Below are positions 4,061-61,915 of a stretch of 64,000 bases of DNA, in pieces. Source of the DNA: Kordiimonas aquimaris (GTDB taxonomy: Bacteria; Pseudomonadota; Alphaproteobacteria; Sphingomonadales; Kordiimonadaceae); NCBI RefSeq assembly GCF_025574485.1, contig NZ_JAOBPO010000001.1:69501-133500 (forward strand), given 5' to 3'. Position 1 is the first letter of the stretch, and each line of letters opens with the position of its first letter. Made by a program: the position numbers and the translations under genes. The notes below the pieces were generated by a model. The model had not been told where the DNA came from. It searched no databases and saw nothing but the letters and a program-made list of their open reading frames with translations.

Positions 4061-4774
4061 CTATCGGAGCGTTACGTCACCAGAGCCCATGCTGCGTGAT
4101 TTAACGCTTTCAGGCTTACCCCAAACATCTACATCGCCGGAGCCCATGATACCAACATCCGCTTTTTCTTTGAGGTGAACAGCCACATCGCCGGACCCCA
4201 TAATGCCGACATCGCCTGTTGCACATTCCATCTTACGCGCACTAACATCACCGGAACCTTTAACTTCCACATCAAGTGAATTGCACGTACCAGAGGCTTC
4301 CACATCACCGGAACCTTTAATATCAATAGAAAGGTCGTCCACCGTCGCATCTATAAGTTCAACATCGCCAGCACCGTGAACACTTGTTTTAAAATTGCCA
4401 CCGCTTAGACCTGTGATCGTAAAATCGCCAGAGCCATAAACCATGGCAGCCTCAAGTGATGGCACAGTTATGTCTACACGTAATACATCGATACGATGAT
4501 TGCGGCGCCATTTACGCTCGTTATCAAGCTCAATATGCAGCGTATCACCGCGTACTTCAGTTTCAATATCACCCATAATATCACTGTCTGCCGTAATTTT
4601 TACGGACTGCTCACCGCCAACAGTGACATTTACTTCAAAAGAACCTTTGTTCTTAATTTGGTTGAATGCTTCGATGTCGCGCATTTCTTCAGATGTATCT
4701 GCAGCAATCGCACCACTAATGCCCGCAAGCGTAACAACACAAGCACCGGCAACAAATTTACCAAGTGAATTCAT
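4061..4774 (-). CDS. DUF2807 (GIN-domain) exported protein with GSGD repeats, copy 1
   Basis: A 237-residue protein with a signal peptide (cleavage after 'GAIAA', about residue 25) and a beta-helix-like DUF2807 domain. The C-terminal two thirds carry seven repeats of the form [YHKM]G[SA]GD[FV], spaced roughly every 10-22 residues. DUF2807 proteins are cell-surface or periplasmic putative auto-transporter/adhesin-like domains of unknown function. The gene is preceded by a GAGGGAG ribosome site and lies 42 bases downstream of a paralogue on the same strand, so the two probably form an operon. A strong terminator follows at about 4005-3974. Confidence 0.85.
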   Translation of the reverse strand: MNSLGKFVAGACVVTLAGISGAIAADTSEEMRDIEAFNQIKNKGSFEVNVTVGGEQSVKITADSDIMGDIETEVRGDTLHIELDNERKWRRNHRIDVLRVDITVPSLEAAMVYGSGDFTITGLSGGNFKTSVHGAGDVELIDATVDDLSIDIKGSGDVEASGTCNSLDVEVKGSGDVSARKMECATGDVGIMGSGDVAVHLKEKADVGIMGSGDVDVWGKPESVKSRSMGSGDVTLR

Positions 4775-4816
4775 TGGAGTTCTCCCTCAAGCCACCGAAA
4801 AGGCAGCATCATGTCT

Positions 4817-5533
4817 TTATTTAATTGAAATGCTCGCAAAACCACCAGAATGTTTTTTCACATTCTTAGGGTTACCATAAACCGAGATGGAGGCAACACC
4901 GGCCACATCTGCATCAATGCTTTCGCTTGCGTAAACTGACGCTGAACCCGCGCCTTTCACTTCAACTTCAACATTTTCGCACTTCAGGTCATCAGCCTCA
5001 ATATCAGCTGCACCTTTCATATCGATTGTAAGCGTACCGCATGTACCACTAATATCCACATCAGCTGCGCCTCGAATATCAATTAGCAACTCATCGCTAT
5101 CAATGTTTTCAAACTCGCCGTCCACGGCACCACGCACATCAATGGCACGCAATGATTCCATGTTGATAGTTACATCAACATTCGTGTTGTTCCAAAAACG
5201 CTTACTATTACCATCTTCTTTCATGTCGATGATTAATGTGTCGCCTGATACTTCCGTCGTTACACGGTCAATACGGCTTTCACGCGCTCTAACCGTCACT
5301 TCCTGATCACTGCTGCCAGCAGTTAGCTCAAGGTCGATAGCGCCGCGTATTTCAATGCGTGTAAAGGTTGCCACATCGCGTGTTTGTGTCACGCGTTCAC
5401 CCTCATCATCATGCAACATTGTTGCACTGCCTGCGACCGAGTAAAGAACACTTGTTGCAACGCCAGCAGCCAAAACGCCTGCCAATACATTACGGCCTGT
5501 CGAATGTCGGCCAAAAATAGATGGGAATCCCAT
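4817..5533 (-). CDS. DUF2807 (GIN-domain) exported protein with GAAD repeats, copy 2
   Basis: A 238-residue paralogue of the next gene: an N-terminal hydrophobic segment (about residues 16-36) that may be an uncleaved anchor or signal peptide, then a DUF2807 beta-helix. Where copy 1 has GSGD repeats, this copy has RGAVD, RGAAD, KGAAD, KGAGS, AGVAS and GGFAS, so the repeat loops have diverged from polar GSGD to more apolar GAAD/GVAS. Otherwise domain order, length and the 'GTC' turn are shared, which indicates an old tandem duplication. It is the first gene of the minus-strand pair. Function is unknown; structural or adhesive surface roles are only inferred. Confidence 0.85.
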   Translation of the reverse strand: MGFPSIFGRHSTGRNVLAGVLAAGVATSVLYSVAGSATMLHDDEGERVTQTRDVATFTRIEIRGAIDLELTAGSSDQEVTVRARESRIDRVTTEVSGDTLIIDMKEDGNSKRFWNNTNVDVTINMESLRAIDVRGAVDGEFENIDSDELLIDIRGAADVDISGTCGTLTIDMKGAADIEADDLKCENVEVEVKGAGSASVYASESIDADVAGVASISVYGNPKNVKKHSGGFASISIK

Positions 5534-5825
5534 TGTTATATCCTCTCTGTTTGTTGTCGTTTTTATTATGTTTTTTATTAGTCACGTTTCTTCAGCGGAA
5601 ACTTATATAGACTGCATATAAATATCCCATTGATTGCTTTCAAGGTCAAGACACACAGCTTAAGTACAAGATTCATATAGAATTCCATTCCAAATACTGC
5701 TGCAATATAGAGATACTGGTTCTAAATGTTAACCGAATCGCGCAACATTCCATAAGCAACACAACCGATAGACCAATTGCATTTAACACCGTTTTGGCTC
5801 AAGATGATCATTATTGAGGAGCTTT

Positions 5826-6200
5826 ATGAGCAAAAATTCTTCTATTTATCCGCTGTTCAGCGAAAGCGACATGGCCTCTCAGAATAGTCATGCGCACCCA
5901 AAAGCGGTTTACTTTATGCGTCCGGAACTGGCACGCATCCTTAACGTTTATGGCCGTTTGGTTTCAGCCGGAGAGTGGCGGGATTATGCAATTGATCACC
6001 TGAAAGATCAGGCCGTGTTTTCCATTTTTCGCCGCGCCAGTGAAATGCCAGTTTACCGCATTATCAAAGAGCCTGCGCGCAACACCCAGCAAGGTATGTG
6101 GCGTATTGTTGGCATGGATGGCCGCATATTGAAGCGAGGGCATGCACTTGATCAATTGTTACGTTATTTTGACCGCATGATGCTTAAAGCCACAGACTAG
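5826..6200 (+). CDS. DUF2794 domain-containing protein
   Basis: A 124-residue soluble protein with the DUF2794 hallmark stretches 'ILNVYGRLVSAGEWRDYAID' (about residues 38-57), 'AVFSIFRRASE' and 'ILKRGH'. DUF2794 is an uncharacterised family almost confined to Alphaproteobacteria, so the gene is useful as a taxonomic marker. The ATG at 5826 is chosen because GAGGAG precedes it by four bases; a TTG at 5814 would overlap that ribosome site. The roughly 290 bases upstream are AT-rich and hold no other recognisable gene. It converges with the histidine kinase gene on the other strand. Confidence 0.88.
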   Translation: MSKNSSIYPLFSESDMASQNSHAHPKAVYFMRPELARILNVYGRLVSAGEWRDYAIDHLKDQAVFSIFRRASEMPVYRIIKEPARNTQQGMWRIVGMDGRILKRGHALDQLLRYFDRMMLKATD

Positions 6201-6235
6201 TTTATATCAACCACAATACAGCAATCTGTAGTTTA

Positions 6236-8254
6236 CTAATGCGTTATTGGTTTGCTTACTTTTTGGCGCACCACTTCCTGGATCGTTGCATCCAGCTTTT
6301 GCCAATCGACAGGTTTAGATACACATGCGTCAATTCCAGCTTCGCTATACTCATCCATGTGCACCTGGGTTGTGTCCGCAGTTAAGGCTATAATTGGCAA
6401 TCTACACCACGTCTCGTCCATCGCCCTTAACTCACGCGTGGCCGTTACGCCGTCCTTAACAGGCATGTGAATGTCCATGAGTACAACATCATACACATCC
6501 TTTGATAACGCTTCCAAAGCCTGTGCACCATCACCAACAACAACAACCGGATATCCCATACGCTCTACAAGAAACTTTTTCAGCATCATCTGATTAACGG
6601 GGTTGTCTTCAGCAGCAAGCACCCGGATGTTTTCTCGCCTTACATCGTTTGTGTCTTCAATAATGTCATGGTCGCGGTTTGTATTTGTGTCAGCAACAGG
6701 AAATGCTGCTTCAAAATAAAAGGTGCTTCCAGCGCCCTTTTTACTGGCACACCATACTTTTCCGCCCATTAAGCCTGCCAGTTTTTTACAAATAGAAAGA
6801 CCTAGCCCCGTCCCTTCTGAAGAACGACTACGTGTTCCCTCAGCCTGATAAAAAGGCTGAAACAACCTTTCCCGTTCAGAAGGAGACAAGCCAACACCAT
6901 CATCCCGCACGGCAAAGCTTAAGTACACTTTGCCACTTGCATCTGAGGTATAGCTCTCGTCAATATCAACAGTTAGTGCAACAGCGCCTTTTTCAGTAAA
7001 CTTTGCAGCGTTAGAGAGAAAATTATTCATAATCTGGGTCACACGCACAGGGTCCATCATCAACTGCAGCTGAGCATTGCCGTTTACAGTCAAATTGAAA
7101 GACAGACCTTTTGCTTCTATCGCCTTTTTATGTGTCTGAGAAAGCTCTTCAACCAGGTTAACCAAGTTGATTGACTGTGGGTTAAGATCAAACCGCCCGG
7201 CTTCCATTTTGGAAACATCCAACACATCTGACAAAACTGTTAACAACTGATCACTGCTGTTAAGCGCAATTTGCGATAACCGTCCGCGCTCATCAGCATC
7301 ATCTTCATCTGCCAACAACTGTAAAACACTAGTGATACCATTTAGCGGCGTGCGTATTTCATGACTAATGAGGGCAAGAAAATCTGACTTTGCCTGATTG
7401 GCTTTCACTGCTTCTTCTTTTGCCTTAACAAGCGCTGCTTCTCGCTCTTTTTTAGCGGAAATATCCTGATGCGTTCCAACAATTCTGCGCGGAGAACCAT
7501 CCTCTCGCCAGCTGACAATCTTACCCCGGCTTAATATCCAAACCAAAGTGCCGTTTTTGTGTATCATCTGGAATTCATCTTCCAGGAACCCATCACCAAC
7601 CGATTGATAGTCTTTAACCGCCTGCTCTGCATCAAGCAGGTCTTCAGGCCTACACAAAATAGACCATGTGTCGTATGTATGGGGTAGTTCGAATTGCTCA
7701 TATCCGACTATATTCATATACTGGCGGCTGAAATACACCTCACCCGTAACCACATCCCAATCCCAAAGACCGTAATCGGCACCTTCAATGGCAAAGCGCA
7801 ACTGATCGCGGTCACGAATAAGCTGCTTAACTTCGTCTACAGCATCTTCAACGCGGCGAGCCGTTACCACACAAGCAACCTTTGCTTCCTTGATAGGTAA
7901 AGCATTCCAGTATAGTGCCAGCTCACTGTCGCTTGATGATGTACTTTCAATAGTATTACCGCGAATTTGCGCCAACTGTTCTCTCAGCGCCGAACCGGCC
8001 AGAACATCCGCAAATTCAGATTCAGAGAATATGGCCTTACATTCTTCAAAATGGCTTTTTCCGACCCAAGATCCACCGTCAGGCGAGCCAAACAGTATTG
8101 CCCAGTCATTATTTACAGTAATGTAACAACCGTCTTCATCAAGCGCCGCTGCTGCAATATTCAGCGTGTCAAAAACCATGTCTGCCAATGGAATTGAAGC
8201 GCTGGCCTGATCGTGTAATTTATCTGACGGTTTATTTGCCTTTGGGCGCGACAA
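6236..8254 (-). CDS. Soluble hybrid sensor histidine kinase (PAS-PAS-HisKA-HATPase-REC)
   Basis: A 672-residue kinase without membrane segments. Two PAS regions (about 25-130 and 150-270, the second ending with the PAC motif 'GTHQDIS') lead into a HisKA box 'SHEIRTPLNG' with the phospho-accepting His298. The ATPase follows (N box 'NNFLSNAAKF' near 410, G1 'DDGVG' at 451-455, G2 'GTGLGLS' at 481-487). A receiver domain from about 543 to 665 carries Asp594 in 'VLMDIHMP'. The start is a TTG at 8254, supported by AGGAAGAG six bases upstream; no ATG near it has a ribosome site. It should sense a cytoplasmic cue and pass phosphate onward through an Hpt protein not seen here. No partner regulator is adjacent. 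Confidence 0.92.
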   Translation of the reverse strand: MSRPKANKPSDKLHDQASASIPLADMVFDTLNIAAAALDEDGCYITVNNDWAILFGSPDGGSWVGKSHFEECKAIFSESEFADVLAGSALREQLAQIRGNTIESTSSSDSELALYWNALPIKEAKVACVVTARRVEDAVDEVKQLIRDRDQLRFAIEGADYGLWDWDVVTGEVYFSRQYMNIVGYEQFELPHTYDTWSILCRPEDLLDAEQAVKDYQSVGDGFLEDEFQMIHKNGTLVWILSRGKIVSWREDGSPRRIVGTHQDISAKKEREAALVKAKEEAVKANQAKSDFLALISHEIRTPLNGITSVLQLLADEDDADERGRLSQIALNSSDQLLTVLSDVLDVSKMEAGRFDLNPQSINLVNLVEELSQTHKKAIEAKGLSFNLTVNGNAQLQLMMDPVRVTQIMNNFLSNAAKFTEKGAVALTVDIDESYTSDASGKVYLSFAVRDDGVGLSPSERERLFQPFYQAEGTRSRSSEGTGLGLSICKKLAGLMGGKVWCASKKGAGSTFYFEAAFPVADTNTNRDHDIIEDTNDVRRENIRVLAAEDNPVNQMMLKKFLVERMGYPVVVVGDGAQALEALSKDVYDVVLMDIHMPVKDGVTATRELRAMDETWCRLPIIALTADTTQVHMDEYSEAGIDACVSKPVDWQKLDATIQEVVRQKVSKPITH

Positions 8255-54110: not shown

Positions 54111-55592
54111 ATGTCTTTATCTCAACTGCAAACCGAATGGTTTGGCAACGTGCGTAGTGATCTTCTCGCCGGTATGGTGGTTGCACTGGCCTTAATACCT
54201 GAAGCAATCGCATTCTCGATCATTGCAGGTGTTGATCCAAAAGTCGGGCTTTATGCGTCTTTCTGTATTGCAGTTGTGATTGCAGTTGTCGGTGGCAGAC
54301 CTGGTATGATCTCTGCTGCTACAGGGGCGATGGCACTGGTGATGGTGACACTAGTTAAAGACCATGGCTTACAATACTTGCTGGCAGCGAGTGTATTAAC
54401 TGGCGTTTTACAAATTATTGCAGGTTATCTAAAGCTGGGCGCTTTGCTGCGATTTGTCTCAAAATCCGTTATGACCGGTTTCGTGAACGCGCTTGCCATA
54501 TTGATATTCATGGCACAGTTGCCCGAGTTTGTTGGCGCTGGCTGGCAAATGTACGCAATGGTTGCTGCGGGTCTGGCCATTATTTACCTGTTTCCTTATG
54601 TGACAAAAGCAGTACCATCGCCGCTGGTAGCTATTGTCGTATTAACTGTATTCAGCATGTATGTGGGCCTTGATATACGCACTGTTGGTAACATGGGAGA
54701 TTTGCCAGACACATTGCCGTTGTTTTTGATCCCGGACATTCCGTTAACATTTGAAACACTTGCCATCATCTTTCCGTATTCCGTGACGTTGATGGCTGTT
54801 GGCTTGCTAGAGTCGCTAATGACCGCCGTTATTGTAGATGACCTGACAGATACACCAAGCGACAAAAACAGAGAATGTAAAGGCCAAGGCATTGCCAACA
54901 TCATAGCGGGCTTCTTTGGCGGTATGGCAGGCTGCGCCATGATTGGGCAATCGATCATTAACGTGAAATCCGGCGGACGCGGCAGGCTTTCAACTTTCTT
55001 TGCCGGTAGCTTCTTGTTGTTTCTCATTCTTGTTCTGAGCGAATGGGTCCAACAAATTCCAATGGCTGCGCTCGTCGCCGTAATGATTATGGTATCTATC
55101 GGCACATTTAGCTGGACGTCCGTGACAAGTTTGAGAACACACCCTAAATCTTCCAGCCTCGTGATGATTGCAACGGTTGCTGTCGTTGTTGTCACGCATG
55201 ACTTGGCACAAGGTGTGTTTGTCGGTGTCCTTATGAGCGCCTTGTTCTTTGCCCGTAAGGTAGCACACTTTTTGCACGTTAAATCTGAGCTGGATACAAA
55301 CAGCAACACCCGCACATACCAGATAACTGGCCAAGTATTTTTTGCGTCTGCATCACAGTTCAGCAATGCATTTGACTTTAAAGAAGTGGTTGAAACGGTA
55401 ACAATTGACCTGACGCAAGCACATTTCTGGGATTTGTCTGCGGTTGGGGCACTTGATAAAGTCGTACTTAAGTTTCGACGCGAAGGAGCCGATGTCAACA
55501 TTCTCGGTCTTAATGAAGCCAGCGCAACCATCGTTGATCGTTTAGGTATATACGACAAACCGGGCGCTGTTGATCTGGTAACTGACCATTAA
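54111..55592 (+). CDS. SulP family anion transporter with STAS domain
   Basis: A 493-residue inner membrane transporter with about 10-12 hydrophobic segments and SulP signatures '[20 protein letters not shown]' near 24-43 and '[20 protein letters not shown]' near 266-285. A C-terminal STAS domain (about 400-490, '[20 protein letters not shown]') follows. It may carry sulfate, bicarbonate or another anion; the sequence does not specify which. The universal stress protein gene 40 bases downstream suggests co-expression. Confidence 0.94.
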
Positions 55593-55632
55593 AATGCCGC
55601 GGCATAGACGGATTTGAATTAAAGGAAAAGCC

Positions 55633-56487
55633 ATGACAACCATCCTTGCGTGTATAGACGGATCAGCGCATATGCCAAGCGTATGTAAACTCAGCGCTTG
55701 GGCCGCCAAACAAACAGGTAAAAAGGCGATATTACTGCACGTGGTTCCTGCGCATGCCGACCATGCATCACACGATGACCTGAGCGGCCAAATTGGTCTG
55801 GGTGCAAAAACAGACCTGATGGATACATTGGTACAGTTAGATGCGGAACGCGCCAAACTTGACCAGAAAAAAGGTCAGCTTATGTTTGAGCAAGCAAGCG
55901 CATTATTCACAGAATTACACCGAGAAACACCAGACATTGTACACCGGCGCGGTACATTGGCAGACACTGTTGCTGAATTGGAAACAGATGTTGAGTTAAT
56001 TGTTATCGGTAAGCGCGGCGAAACTGCCACTAAGTCAGGACATCTGGGCTCAAACCTTGAACGCGTAACGCGCGCCGTTAGCAAACCGCTTCTGATTGCA
56101 ACTAAAAGCACCAAACCTGTTGATCAGTTTCTCATTGCTTATGACAACAGTGCAAACAGCAATAAAGCGCTGGCGTATGTTTGCAAAAATAAACTGCTGC
56201 AAGGCGCTACATGCCACCTGTTAACCGTCGCTACTGAGACAGAAGCAGCAAAAACCGCACTATCAAATGCGAAAGCTAAATTGATTACAGCCGGCTTCGA
56301 CGTAACCGCTACACTCAAAAATGCTCACAGTATTGATGATGCCGTTTCCAGCTACATTGCAGACAATAATATCAACTTACTTGTAATGGGCGCTTACGGT
56401 CATTCTGCCATTCGCCGCATGATATTTGGCAGCACAACCATGGCACAAATTGAACGATCAAAAACGCCTGTTTTGCTATTCAGGTGA
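55633..56487 (+). CDS. Tandem universal stress protein (UspA family)
   Basis: A 284-residue protein of two Usp domains. Each has an intact ATP-binding motif G-x2-G-x9-G-S: 'GKRGETATKSGHLGS' near 122-136 in the first and 'GAYGHSAIRRMIFGS' near 255-269 in the second. Tandem Usp proteins bind ATP and act in stress survival, often partnering with SulP or other transporters. AAAGGAAAAG precedes its ATG. It lies just behind the SulP gene. Confidence 0.93.
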   Translation: MTTILACIDGSAHMPSVCKLSAWAAKQTGKKAILLHVVPAHADHASHDDLSGQIGLGAKTDLMDTLVQLDAERAKLDQKKGQLMFEQASALFTELHRETPDIVHRRGTLADTVAELETDVELIVIGKRGETATKSGHLGSNLERVTRAVSKPLLIATKSTKPVDQFLIAYDNSANSNKALAYVCKNKLLQGATCHLLTVATETEAAKTALSNAKAKLITAGFDVTATLKNAHSIDDAVSSYIADNNINLLVMGAYGHSAIRRMIFGSTTMAQIERSKTPVLLFR

Positions 56488-57740: not shown

Positions 57741-59264
57741 GTGAAAGTGGCTACAGGATTTTTTGCCGTAATTTTCGGGAGCTTGCTTTCCGTATTTCAA
57801 GTAGTCGCTGATGACACTTCTGCTAAAACGCGCCTTTTATATTTCTCTTCTTTTCCTGAAATTCGACAAGCGGCCGATGCACCCGGCCTCGCCGAGTTAG
57901 CAAGCGCTATCAAGGCAAAAAGCCAGGAAGTACCTGAAAGTTATTTTATTGACGGCGGCGCATCGCTTGGTCCGTCCGTTCTTGGCTCTATGGATGCTGG
58001 TGCACATATGGTCGACCTATTGAATGCCCTAGAACCAGCTTTCATGGCTATTGGAAAAAAAGAATTTTCATATGGGTTTGATCACTTTGTTGTAAACGCC
58101 CATGCAGCAACTTTCCCTATTGTCACGTCCAACCTTATCGATGTGCAAACCGATAAGCCCATTGCAATAGCTGATAGCGATTTCATCATTGATGCAGAGC
58201 AAATGACCATCGGCTTCATTGTTTTGACATCTGCGTCAGCCGTCACAGAATACGGAGCACGGCAAATCAGAGCTCTTGAAACTAAACAAGTGGTAACCAC
58301 AAAATCAGCTCAATTAAGAGAAGAAGGCTCAAATGCCATCATATTACTGGCAGACACAGACTTCGATGACCTTAGCTACCTGCAAGAAGAAGCCTTAGTG
58401 GATGTCATTTTTTATGCGCACAATTTTGACAATCCATACTCTGTAGATAATCAAGGTCAAAAACACAGCGATGGAGCTTTAGACAATAACCTGATTGTGC
58501 TTGATTTATGGCAAGAGGTAGGACCAAACGGCACAAGCATATTAAAAACAGATGTTTCCTTTACAGATATCAGCACATACAGCCCTGAACCTGCTGTTGA
58601 TGCACAAGTCAAATCCTATCAAACGCGGCTTGATCATCTGCTTGGTTCAACGCTCGCCACATTGAAGCACGGTTTTAACACATACAGAGATAACGTTCGT
58701 TCCAGTGAAAATCCTTTTGCCAACATTGTCACTGATGCAATGCAAGACGCAACAGGTGCAGATGCTGCAATTATCAATGGAGGCTCCATTCGGGGCAATA
58801 CGAACTATCACACCGGGCAACAGGTTAACCGCGGTGATATTCAACGTGAATTACCATTTGAAAATCGTGTAGTTCTATTAAGTCTGGAAGGCTCTATTAT
58901 CAAAGAAATAATAGAGCAAGGTATTGATTGTGGACTGCGCCTTGACGGTTGTTTTATCCACTTCAGCGACATTAGGGTGGTCTATGACGCTAACCTTCCA
59001 GCAGACAACCGCATTACTAGTATTGAAATGAACGGTGAAAAGCTAAACGATAACCGTTTCTACCGCGTAGCTGTCTCTGATTTTATGGCGCGCGGAAATG
59101 ATGGTTTCACCAAGCTGGAAAATGCAGAACGTATTACTGAAAAAGGCACCAATCGATTTATCTGGCGGATTGTAGCTGACTATGCTGCTGAAATGAAAAT
59201 ACTTGGCATGCGCACTGATGGCAGACTTAAGAATACAGCTGTAGAAGGTTTGACACCAAATTAA
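57741..59264 (+). CDS. Exported 5'-nucleotidase-family protein lacking metal ligands (pseudoenzyme)
   Basis: A 507-residue secreted protein (signal peptide ending 'VVADD', about residue 25) with the two-domain plan of UshA-like 5'-nucleotidases. The N-terminal metallophosphatase domain has lost every motif I can align: no D-x-H in the first strand (it reads 'LLYFSSFPEI'), GGAS at 72-75 for GGD, GKKEF at 105-109 for GNHEF, and AHNF at 226-229 for GHSH. The C-terminal substrate domain looks intact: 'INGGSIRG' (345-352), 'LPFENR' (371-376), 'RGNDGF' (451-456). It should bind a nucleotide or nucleoside without hydrolysing it. The start is GTG at 57741. Its stop overlaps the kinase start by one base (TAATG), which suggests a sensory partner role. 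Confidence 0.82.
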   Translation: MKVATGFFAVIFGSLLSVFQVVADDTSAKTRLLYFSSFPEIRQAADAPGLAELASAIKAKSQEVPESYFIDGGASLGPSVLGSMDAGAHMVDLLNALEPAFMAIGKKEFSYGFDHFVVNAHAATFPIVTSNLIDVQTDKPIAIADSDFIIDAEQMTIGFIVLTSASAVTEYGARQIRALETKQVVTTKSAQLREEGSNAIILLADTDFDDLSYLQEEALVDVIFYAHNFDNPYSVDNQGQKHSDGALDNNLIVLDLWQEVGPNGTSILKTDVSFTDISTYSPEPAVDAQVKSYQTRLDHLLGSTLATLKHGFNTYRDNVRSSENPFANIVTDAMQDATGADAAIINGGSIRGNTNYHTGQQVNRGDIQRELPFENRVVLLSLEGSIIKEIIEQGIDCGLRLDGCFIHFSDIRVVYDANLPADNRITSIEMNGEKLNDNRFYRVAVSDFMARGNDGFTKLENAERITEKGTNRFIWRIVADYAAEMKILGMRTDGRLKNTAVEGLTPN

Positions 59265-61915
59265 TGACCAAGACAGCAACACATTCCAAACATAAGTTTG
59301 GCCTCAGTTTTCGCATCAACGGCGTTATTACCGTATTGCTTATTACGGTTTTGGCTATTGCGACATTTTCTTATCGTTCTCTTCGAGACTTCAGTGACCA
59401 AATCAGCCTCTTCTCTCAGCAAACACTGCCTGCACTTAATAATACAATTACGCTAACAGCCTCGTTAGAAGAAGTGGTACATGGAACAGAAAGCCTGATG
59501 AACAGCGACATTCAGGCCAGCAGGCGAATCGCTTATACAGAAACCGTTGCTAGCCTTGGTATCATCAGGTCTTCTCTGAGCAACAATAATAATAACATTG
59601 CAGAATCCGAAGAGTTGGCCACAATTATCGACATTTTGTCCAACACGACAGAAGATTTAAACAAACTGATCGACGAACGGATAATGCTGGCAGATCGCGC
59701 AAGAGCAGTGACCGACACAATCGGGCAATGGGTATTAAATGATCTACAAACACCTGAGGGTGACGATGCCGAATCTGTAGACCCTGCCTATCTGTCCTGG
59801 TTTGGACAATTCAGGCAATTGGTCATCAGTGCCGGACAAGTATCCGGTCAAAACAGTGCGCGGGACCAAAATCGCATCATAAGAGCCTCAAACAGGCAAA
59901 TGCGCACCTTAGAGAGAAACATTGAAACACTTGCACCAGCTTCCAGAATTAAAGCACAAGAACAGCTTGAAGGGTTCGTTACAAATTACACAAGCGATGG
60001 CGGCTTATTTGAGGTTCAAAAAGCGCTTAACGGCACAACGGCCCGCTCACAAGCTCTTGCCCGGCAAATGCAGGTACTCGTTGCCGAGTTACTGCGCAAA
60101 ACGGAAGATCTGGCTGCCAGCAATAGCGCCCAAGCCCAAACCGCAAGCGACCAATTAGCGGCAAAAGTGAAACAACAAGTTACGTTGTTTCTGATCGGTG
60201 CTATTTTTGCCATTGTCGTAGCTGCATTAAGTTATGTTTTCATTGGGCGGCAGGTAATACAAAGACTACTCTCTCTACGAGAGGCAGTAACTAACCGCGC
60301 TTCTGGCGGAGAGAAACCAGTCCCAACCGACGGAAACGATGAAGTCACCGATATCGGCGAAGCCGTACAGTATTTCATTCAAGAGATTGATGGCCGCCAA
60401 CAACAGCTACAAGCCAACGCACAACAACTACAGTCTGTCATAAGGCTTTCACCTCAGGCTATGTGCATCGCAACGGAAACAGAAATACTGTATTTTAACG
60501 AAGCTTATATATCAGTGTGGGATCAAATAAACCCTGGCATACCTTTTGACTACAAACTCGGACATGCAGGTATTCCAGATAAGCTTTTATTACCATCAAA
60601 AGCAGGCGATACCATTCATGTGTCTCGCCATGCAGTAAAAGGAACAAGCAGGATAGTACAATGGTTTGACTTGGCCAGCAGTTCAGTTGAATGGCACGGC
60701 ACACCTGCAAGGCAAATCGTTATTGTTGATGTAACAAAACAGGTTCAGGTTGAACACACCCTGGAAGAAGCACGCAGAAAAGCAGAAGCTGCCGCACAAT
60801 CAAAAAGTAACTTCCTAGCGATGATGAGCCACGAAATCCGTTCTCCTATGAACGGTATAATTTCCGTCGGTGAGATATTGGAAGGCAGTAACCTTAACAA
60901 GGAACAGCGTGAACTTGTGCAGGTCATCAATCAGTCCGCAGAGACATTACTGACTATATTAAATGACATCCTGGACTTATCCAAGATTGAGGCAGGTAAA
61001 CTGGAAATCGCAACGGCCGATTTTGAATTGGCATCGGTCATACAGGGTGTTGCAAATCTATTAACTGCTGCTTTTGAACAAAAAGGTTTGACACTAAAGG
61101 TTCAGGTTGATCCAGATGTGCCAAAACACATCCATAGTGACGAAAACCGTATACGACAAATTCTCTTTAACTTGCTTGGTAATGCCTTAAAATTTACAGA
61201 AAGCGGTCACGTAAACGTAAATGCATCGCTTGTTACTCCTAACAGCAAAAACGAACCACTCATTCGTATTTCTGTAAAAGATACAGGCGTTGGTATAGCG
61301 CCGGAAGTCATAGAACGCCTGTTCCAACCTTTTGAACAGGCAGACTCGACAACAGCACGGCAGTACGGTGGAACAGGTCTTGGCCTTAGTATATGTAAAC
61401 GGTTGGCAGAATTACTGGATGGTGAGATCAAAGTTGATAGTTCTGTTGGTAAAGGTTCAGAATTTGTGCTGGATATTCCACTTCAAATTGCTGTTGCAGA
61501 CGAAGACACACCCACACTTACCAATGAACAATCCTTGGAAACCGAAGGCAATCAATTAAAACGTATTCTTGTTGTTGAAGACAACAAGGTCAATCAACTA
61601 GTCATTGGCAAAATTCTTAAATCACTTGGTTATCAATGGGACACCGCAGATGATGGCCTCAATGCACTTGAATTATTTGACCGTAAAACGCACGACTTAA
61701 TTCTGACTGACCTGCGTATGCCGCGCATGGATGGATTTGCCCTTGCCCGCGCTATCAGGTCTGATGAAGAAAAAGGCACCCGTATCCCAATTGTTGCCCT
61801 ATCTGCTGATGCAATGGATGAAGCACGTAAACTAAGCCAACAGTCTGGTATAGATGCCTTCTTGACCAAGCCTGTAAAGGTAGATGATGTGCGCCAATGT
61901 CTGAACAGTTTTTAA
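59264..61915 (+). CDS. Membrane hybrid sensor histidine kinase with large periplasmic domain
   Basis: An 883-residue kinase. TM1 spans about 18-36, a 270-residue helical periplasmic sensor lies at 37-304, and TM2 at about 305-327. A short HAMP-like linker ('VIQRLLSLREAVTNRA') leads to a PAS-like region (about 385-495). HisKA has His523 in 'MMSHEIRSPMNG'. The HATPase has 'NALKF' near 641, 'DTGVG' near 673 and 'GTGLGLS' near 704. A receiver at 767-883 carries Asp816 in 'LTDLRMP'. It is translationally coupled to the upstream pseudo-5'-nucleotidase, whose bound form could dock on the sensor domain, as LuxP does on LuxQ or TorT on TorS. No response regulator is adjacent. Confidence 0.93.
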   Translation: MTKTATHSKHKFGLSFRINGVITVLLITVLAIATFSYRSLRDFSDQISLFSQQTLPALNNTITLTASLEEVVHGTESLMNSDIQASRRIAYTETVASLGIIRSSLSNNNNNIAESEELATIIDILSNTTEDLNKLIDERIMLADRARAVTDTIGQWVLNDLQTPEGDDAESVDPAYLSWFGQFRQLVISAGQVSGQNSARDQNRIIRASNRQMRTLERNIETLAPASRIKAQEQLEGFVTNYTSDGGLFEVQKALNGTTARSQALARQMQVLVAELLRKTEDLAASNSAQAQTASDQLAAKVKQQVTLFLIGAIFAIVVAALSYVFIGRQVIQRLLSLREAVTNRASGGEKPVPTDGNDEVTDIGEAVQYFIQEIDGRQQQLQANAQQLQSVIRLSPQAMCIATETEILYFNEAYISVWDQINPGIPFDYKLGHAGIPDKLLLPSKAGDTIHVSRHAVKGTSRIVQWFDLASSSVEWHGTPARQIVIVDVTKQVQVEHTLEEARRKAEAAAQSKSNFLAMMSHEIRSPMNGIISVGEILEGSNLNKEQRELVQVINQSAETLLTILNDILDLSKIEAGKLEIATADFELASVIQGVANLLTAAFEQKGLTLKVQVDPDVPKHIHSDENRIRQILFNLLGNALKFTESGHVNVNASLVTPNSKNEPLIRISVKDTGVGIAPEVIERLFQPFEQADSTTARQYGGTGLGLSICKRLAELLDGEIKVDSSVGKGSEFVLDIPLQIAVADEDTPTLTNEQSLETEGNQLKRILVVEDNKVNQLVIGKILKSLGYQWDTADDGLNALELFDRKTHDLILTDLRMPRMDGFALARAIRSDEEKGTRIPIVALSADAMDEARKLSQQSGIDAFLTKPVKVDDVRQCLNSF

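Follow-up and report, generated by a model that had tools for sequence, protein, structure and literature searches.

A degenerate 5'-nucleotidase encoded beside TorS-like sensors as a candidate periplasmic co-receptor

Introduction

What is the role of a secreted protein of the 5'-nucleotidase family that has lost most of its catalytic site, and whose gene runs directly into that of a histidine kinase? This question is raised by two genes of the alphaproteobacterium Kordiimonas aquimaris (RefSeq assembly GCF_025574485.1, contig NZ_JAOBPO010000001.1), which lie in a stretch of 64,000 nt (contig positions 69,501 to 133,500, forward strand) that we call the window and in whose numbering positions are given here. 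The first gene (57741–59264, forward strand, GTG start) encodes the degenerate nucleotidase of 507 aa, in the following named the pseudo-enzyme, and the second (59264–61915, forward strand, ATG start) a hybrid histidine kinase of 883 aa. Stop and start codon overlap in a TAATG (59262–59266) that contains the kinase ATG, so that the genes share one base; open reading frames (ORFs) and sequence agree in this with a sequence-only reading of the window made earlier. We found that the pairing of pseudo-enzyme and sensor genes is a conserved module, and consider it likely that the pseudo-enzyme is a ligand-binding co-receptor for a TorS-like sensor, with a nucleoside or nucleotide as the most likely ligand.

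LytS/XylFII, TorS/TorT and LuxQ/LuxP are named in PMC6321045 as kinases for which structures of the complex with a binding protein are available. LuxP/LuxQ and XylFII/LytS resemble the pair described here in that the signal passes from a binding protein in the periplasm to a sensor kinase (PMC6321045). Binding-protein-dependent sensor kinases are known with partners of the Peripla_BP type, while the subunit proposed here would be a phosphohydrolase turned receptor. The LuxP and XylFII systems presumably differ further in the folds of binding protein and sensor, and lack an enzyme ancestry. The OrhK/OrhR system of uropathogenic E. coli, considered as possibly paired with a nucleotidase, was dropped as a precedent, the word "nucleotidase" occurring 0 times in the main text. 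No nucleotidase-family co-receptor is described in the titles and opening lines of abstracts among the matches listed in the open-licence literature, and no receptor of this kind appears in the accessible parts of a review on microbial 5'-nucleotidases (PMC8475336).

Results

The pseudo-enzyme keeps the fold and the substrate pocket of 5'-nucleotidases

PF02872 was the sole Pfam match of the pseudo-enzyme (residues 306–459, positions 58656–59117; 124.3 bits versus a cut-off of 23.6), and PF00149 was not matched up to an E value of 1. Among its sensor-linked relatives, which are described below, PF02872 was found in all 15 members tested and PF00149 in none of the 15 at an E value of 0.01, versus five of five relatives with an intact metal site. 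The AlphaFold model (mean predicted local distance difference test score, pLDDT, 82.6; low confidence at residues 1–4, 19–26, 78–87 and 504–507) has the two-domain nucleotidase fold of CD73, T. thermophilus 5'-nucleotidase and E. coli c4898 (Foldseek E values of about 1e-36). Since the whole 5'-nucleotidase fold is matched despite the detection of PF02872 only, both domains are present and the N-terminal one is degenerate. The best PDB match by sequence was c4898, which according to the PDB titles was solved with uridine or cytidine. A putative signal peptide (residues 1–23, 57741–57809) was read by eye and coincides with a low-confidence helix of the model (residues 4–20). UshA, CD73 and c4898, which combine PF00149 with PF02872, thus share the two-domain fold and the conserved pocket residues with the pseudo-enzyme, but here the metallophosphatase domain is not seen by Pfam, the catalytic His and most metal ligands are gone, and the gene is linked to that of a sensor.

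To describe this loss by position, we scored six metal or catalytic residues of CD73 (D36, D85, N117, H118, H220, H243) and six substrate residues (R354, N390, R395, F417, F500, D506), taking the correspondence from PDB alignments; we assume the roles and numbers of these 12 residues to be those established for CD73. In an alignment with relatives and with the CD73 and c4898 chains, five of the metal or catalytic positions are changed in the window protein (D36 to S37, D85 to A74, N117 to K106, H118 to K107, H220 to D205). The earlier statement that all metallophosphatase motifs are replaced therefore has to be narrowed: five of the six residues are lost, but H227 of the AHNF motif, the first His of GHxH, corresponds to CD73 H243 and is kept. 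Retention of the substrate-domain motifs, also proposed from sequence, was borne out at all six pocket positions (R320, N346, R351, F373, F448, D454), two of which are aromatic residues that we take to stack the base in CD73. From this conservation, the ligand is probably a nucleotide or nucleoside. The codons of K106 and K107 (58056–58061) replace the catalytic Asn-His dyad, and the basic pair could stand in for the charge of the metals near the phosphate, which would favour a phosphate-bearing ligand.

The only other PF02872 match in the genome is a paralogue at C1:276087-276524 (L002, L027). It keeps six of six metal positions and three of six pocket positions.

The kinase carries a TorS-like sensor

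The sensor part of the kinase together with its two membrane helices (residues 20–345, 59321–60298) was modelled as all-helical (AlphaFold2, pLDDT 84.3), and the stretch between the helices fits the periplasmic domain of about 270 residues that had been suggested for it. The TorS sensor domain 3i9w was the only PDB match at an E value of 0.001 or below (Foldseek, 8e-4); the TorS-TorT complex 3o1h, a chemoreceptor domain of McpS and 3i9y (TorS, TMt 0.80, root mean square deviation 3.5) came next. An hhalign comparison with four TorS-type sensors gave 99.5% with an E value of 2.6e-22 over 329 columns. The sensor is followed by a HAMP-like linker (residues 326–375, 60239–60388; PF00672, 21.8 bits, cut-off 25), a HisKA phospho-acceptor domain (residues 513–578, 60800–60997) with the H-box SHEIRSP, a HATPase_c domain (residues 626–741, 61139–61486) and one receiver domain (residues 768–879, 61565–61900), the last three by Pfam, in line with its designation as a hybrid kinase. 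Pfam gave no match to Hpt in this protein.

As in TorT/TorS, for which structures are known (3o1h, 3o1i), a gene for a periplasmic protein stands beside that of a hybrid kinase, and the sensor has its best PDB fold match in TorS. The two systems differ in that the subunit proposed to bind the ligand has the fold of a 5'-nucleotidase (PF02872) and not that of Peripla_BP, that the window kinase has no Hpt match, and that related partners include diguanylate cyclases.

When 385 genomes of the class were searched with the sensor, the only strong matches were those of the window and of genome G345, both beside a pseudo-enzyme gene. Weaker matches were found in 12 further genomes (E 2e-20 or worse), and no nucleotidase was seen in the 14 loci (L171–L184) fetched for them. 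Six upstream ORFs of these loci, picked by eye, were run through Pfam. At least five of the 14 loci have a gene for a periplasmic binding protein on the strand of the sensor gene, 6 to 643 bp upstream of it: SBP_bac_3 in L175, L183 and L184, Peripla_BP_4 in L180 and Peripla_BP_6 in L181. The upstream ORF of L171 had no Pfam match, and the distant sensor proteins of L174, L176, L178 and L179 are chemoreceptors. The pseudo-enzyme gene thus occupies the position in which distant relatives of the sensor carry binding-protein genes, which together with the fold supports the comparison with TorT/TorS made in the sequence-only reading. Three binding-protein families beside TorS-like sensors suggest that this sensor type readily swaps its ligand-binding partner.

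Loss of the metal site coincides with linkage to a sensor gene

For a survey of the family, the window protein, its paralogue and 131 homologous ORFs of 420 aa or more (from 139 profile matches, of which the 8 shorter ones were dropped; loci L034–L050, L070–L126, L152–L191 and L197–L228) were aligned, giving 133 proteins. From the phylum search, G797, G804 and G965 among the 32 strongest places, and most of the weaker places, were left out, as were G639, G329, G489 and G559 from the class search. The table does not include 11 weaker nucleotidase loci from the window's family (L021–L026, L028–L032), available as short stretches; no sensor or kinase match was seen beside them.

A gene with the same sensor domain follows directly downstream on the same strand in 51 of the 133 proteins (the window and 50 others), mostly with gene overlaps or short gaps of up to 94 bp. 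These are 51 of the 54 proteins with at most three of the six metal positions, versus 0 of the 79 with four to six. The 79 comprise 78 relatives and the paralogue; no sensor gene was found downstream of any of the 78 in their fetched neighbourhoods, which in L086, L087, L117 and L124 comprise less than 300 bp there. The single sensor match of the K. aquimaris genome is that of the window, with none at the paralogue. Recurrence in 50 other loci of the table, and in six held-out loci described below, shows that the arrangement is not due to chance.

Of the metal positions, the linked proteins keep none (12 proteins), one (38) or two (1). H220 is lost in all 51, and the H118 position is K or R in all 51 and His in all 78 intact relatives. 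K occupies position 106 in 86% and R position 107 in 94% of the linked proteins. All six pocket residues are present in 51 of 51, and 12 positions, among them S75, D92, P99 and Y171, are conserved in the linked proteins but not in the intact relatives.

Three degenerate proteins are unlinked: L111 (one metal and two substrate positions), L100 (two and six) and L099_6617 (three and five). The L111 frame (4682-6538) begins as the C-terminal portion of a binding protein of the TAXI type (NMT1_3); as bases upstream are masked, this fusion is uncertain, and there is no adjoining sensor match. Three related genes of the nucleotidase family are found in genome G607 (L099, L100). Two of these are partly degenerate, one of which stands in tandem with an intact copy, and there are no adjoining sensor genes.

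Presence of the two genes was compared in two families. In the window's family, a full-length pseudo-enzyme was found in 18 of 29 genomes and the sensor (E≤1e-8) in the same 18, while G011 and G014 gave only weak matches; the two genes adjoin in all 17 genomes fetched besides the window. A contig scan gave one named relative, a contig of an uncultured Kordiimonas with 52% identity. In one gammaproteobacterial family, the pseudo-enzyme (E<1e-140) was found in 23 of 118 genomes and the sensor (E≤1e-10) in exactly these 23. G1027 and G1100 gave weak matches, and the one fetched (L216) lacks a sensor gene and keeps six of six metal positions. Both genes are present at these thresholds in 41 of the 147 genomes, neither in 106 and only one of the two in 0.

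Once the pattern was clear, a held-out search was run on 197 genomes of the gammaproteobacterial order. It gave 10 matches at E≤1e-100, six of them new and from two other families. In all six the dyad is changed at both positions and a sensor-like gene adjoins; in five, the pocket is complete. Conserved linkage to a sensor, which had been put forward as a check, was thus seen in every member of the pseudo-enzyme clade and in the held-out set, and an intact-metal homologue in the same operon position was not encountered among the 78.

These data bear on the idea of a secreted hydrolase whose activity is residual or altered and whose gene only shares a transcript with that of a sensor for an unrelated signal. 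H227 is kept in the window, and N117 and D36 persist in 7 and 15 of the 51 linked proteins. Against this, H118 and H220 are lost in all 51, PF00149 is unmatched in all members tested, intact homologues are never linked, and the two genes match in presence across the 147 genomes. We regard a hydrolase as improbable.

The sensor partners differ in their outputs

In the window's family the partners are hybrid kinases, and Hpt was found in that of L045. G345 and one Azospirillum type have a PAS-type kinase with HisKA below the Pfam cut-off, and the other Azospirillum type (A. brasilense L220) is a hybrid kinase that includes Hpt. All 28 kinase partners have an H-box, which one pattern detected in 27 and which reads SHDIRTP in L125. 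The 23 gammaproteobacterial partners of the table have GGDEF, detected by Pfam in the four so examined and by profile in the remaining 19, and all 23 contain a GGEEF motif. Five of the six held-out partners likewise have a GGDEF domain with GGEEF. The partner is hence a hybrid kinase in the window, as had been read from the sequence, but not always a kinase elsewhere, since 28 of the 57 linked partners (51 of the table and six held-out) carry GGDEF.

Both kinase types occur in A. brasilense Sp7, with two such pairs on one plasmid record. The pair is also present in annotated records of A. ramasamyi and A. brasilense Cd, where the pseudo-enzyme is given the Gene Ontology term nucleotide catabolic process, an annotation affected by these findings. 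In A. brasilense Cd (L221:8963-10162) a gene for another hybrid kinase/response regulator (WP_158283117.1) comes after the pair; its product may be a partner acting downstream.

The linked proteins form one clade under purifying selection

A tree of 130 of the proteins (excluding the paralogue, L126 and L216, and including the metal-site columns) was calculated by a quick method with Shimodaira-Hasegawa-like approximate likelihood ratio (SH-aLRT) support, without bootstrap, and rooted on L164. The 51 sensor-linked proteins form one clade (SH-aLRT 99) that spans two classes, and the 23 cyclase-linked ones a single subclade within it (SH-aLRT 100). This topology is consistent with a single capture and a single switch to cyclase output. 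Pseudo-enzyme and sensor distances correlate (r 0.95 for 17 loci, 0.86 for 23 loci), as expected from co-inheritance.

In six close pairs, the ratio of nonsynonymous to synonymous substitution rates (dN/dS) was 0.04–0.22 for the pseudo-enzyme and 0.05–0.26 for the partner genes; two further pairs were saturated. As judged from these ratios, the pseudo-enzyme gene is under purifying selection. A decaying pseudogene beside a kinase might account for the missing catalytic residues, and the A. thermophilum relative (L222:4010-5548), which adjoins a sensor kinase gene, is recorded in pieces in several reading frames. For the clade this explanation is disfavoured by the selection and co-occurrence tests; in all 51 proteins the frame is 420 aa or longer and has all six pocket residues, the gene is conserved over two classes, and we consider decay exceedingly improbable.

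The conserved gene could also encode an inhibitory or scaffolding subunit of the sensor that acts without a ligand and is released by envelope stress or a redox change. A conserved partner needs no small ligand, and the 12 positions conserved in the linked proteins only could lie at an interface with another protein. The pocket is retained as a whole, however, in a gene under purifying selection, and binding proteins take the same gene position at distant sensors of this type, so that we judge such a subunit quite unlikely.

Discussion

We propose that both genes encode one receptor, whose first product would be secreted, with a 5'-nucleotidase fold from which most of the catalytic metal site has gone and a retained pocket suited to grip base, ribose and phosphate. 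In the periplasm the pseudo-enzyme would serve as ligand-binding co-receptor, as TorT does for TorS, with a nucleoside, a nucleotide or a closely related compound bound but not hydrolysed between its two domains. PDB titles for CD73 list 5'-nucleotidases of this family in open and closed forms, much as binding proteins, and by analogy domain closure of the pseudo-enzyme may be the switch. The TorS-like helical bundle of the partner would read its shape, presumably by direct contact, and the signal would pass the membrane through the HAMP-like linker and set the kinase. The receiver presumably hands the phosphate to a separate Hpt protein and a response regulator. In Azospirillum the same receptor unit may drive an ordinary kinase, and in some gammaproteobacteria a diguanylate cyclase.

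Several observations weigh against the co-receptor and its proposed ligand. Metal loss in the 51 linked proteins is uneven (D36 kept in 15, D85 in 5, N117 in 7, H243 in 13), and all six pocket residues are also found in 67 of the 79 proteins with four to six metal positions, so that they may be kept for the fold. The linked proteins are not independent (L220 equals L221, and others are near copies), and as one capture fits the tree, they do not represent 51 independent events. Sensor identity to the window is 15–37%, the Pfam TorS model PF21689 was reached alone by none of 15 sensors, and the McpS chemoreceptor domain ranks adjacent to TorS in the fold search. Among the held-out loci, L233 and L234 have weak sensor matches (21 and 28 bits), and L234 has a short partner without GGDEF and a Lys for pocket residue R395. 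Finally, the widest NCBIfam match of the pseudo-enzyme is SoxB (TIGR04486, residues 43–490, 61.8 bits versus a cut-off of 550), so that another ligand is possible.

The thiosulfohydrolase SoxB belongs to the same superfamily, and the score rules out membership of the pseudo-enzyme in SoxB itself. A co-receptor for the TorS-like sensor could nonetheless bind a sulfur compound, a sugar phosphate or some other ligand outside the nucleotides and nucleosides, the more so as the altered metal site and the new basic pair change the cavity. This alternative is set against the low SoxB score, against the retention of both base-stacking aromatic residues and of the R, N, R and D of the pocket in 51 of 51 linked proteins, and against best fold and PDB sequence matches that are all nucleotidases. 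We consider it unlikely and prefer a nucleotide or nucleoside as ligand of the co-receptor.

For the history of this co-receptor we lean, with some reserve, towards a portable receptor. A nucleotidase would have lost its metal site once, kept the pocket and been captured by a TorS-type sensor; the pair would then have spread through alpha- and gammaproteobacteria with outputs swapped between hybrid kinase, kinase and diguanylate cyclase, extracellular nucleotides setting phosphorelays or cyclic di-GMP (c-di-GMP). The pseudo-enzyme would be an example of pseudoenzyme recruitment into signalling, and related pairs act on different outputs. If its ligand is a nucleotide or nucleoside, it offers a concrete candidate for bacterial sensing of extracellular nucleic-acid breakdown products, linked to phosphorelays or c-di-GMP, and A. 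brasilense Sp7, a laboratory strain associated with plants, is among the carriers.

Flanking genes gave no clue to the ligand, as they recur among close relatives only. One upstream family in 10 gammaproteobacterial loci resembles what we take to be an aminoacyl-tRNA synthetase. In the window, counterparts of two ORFs at 54111–56487 recur near the module in L036 and L039; these ORFs presumably encode a SulP-type transporter and a UspA-like protein.

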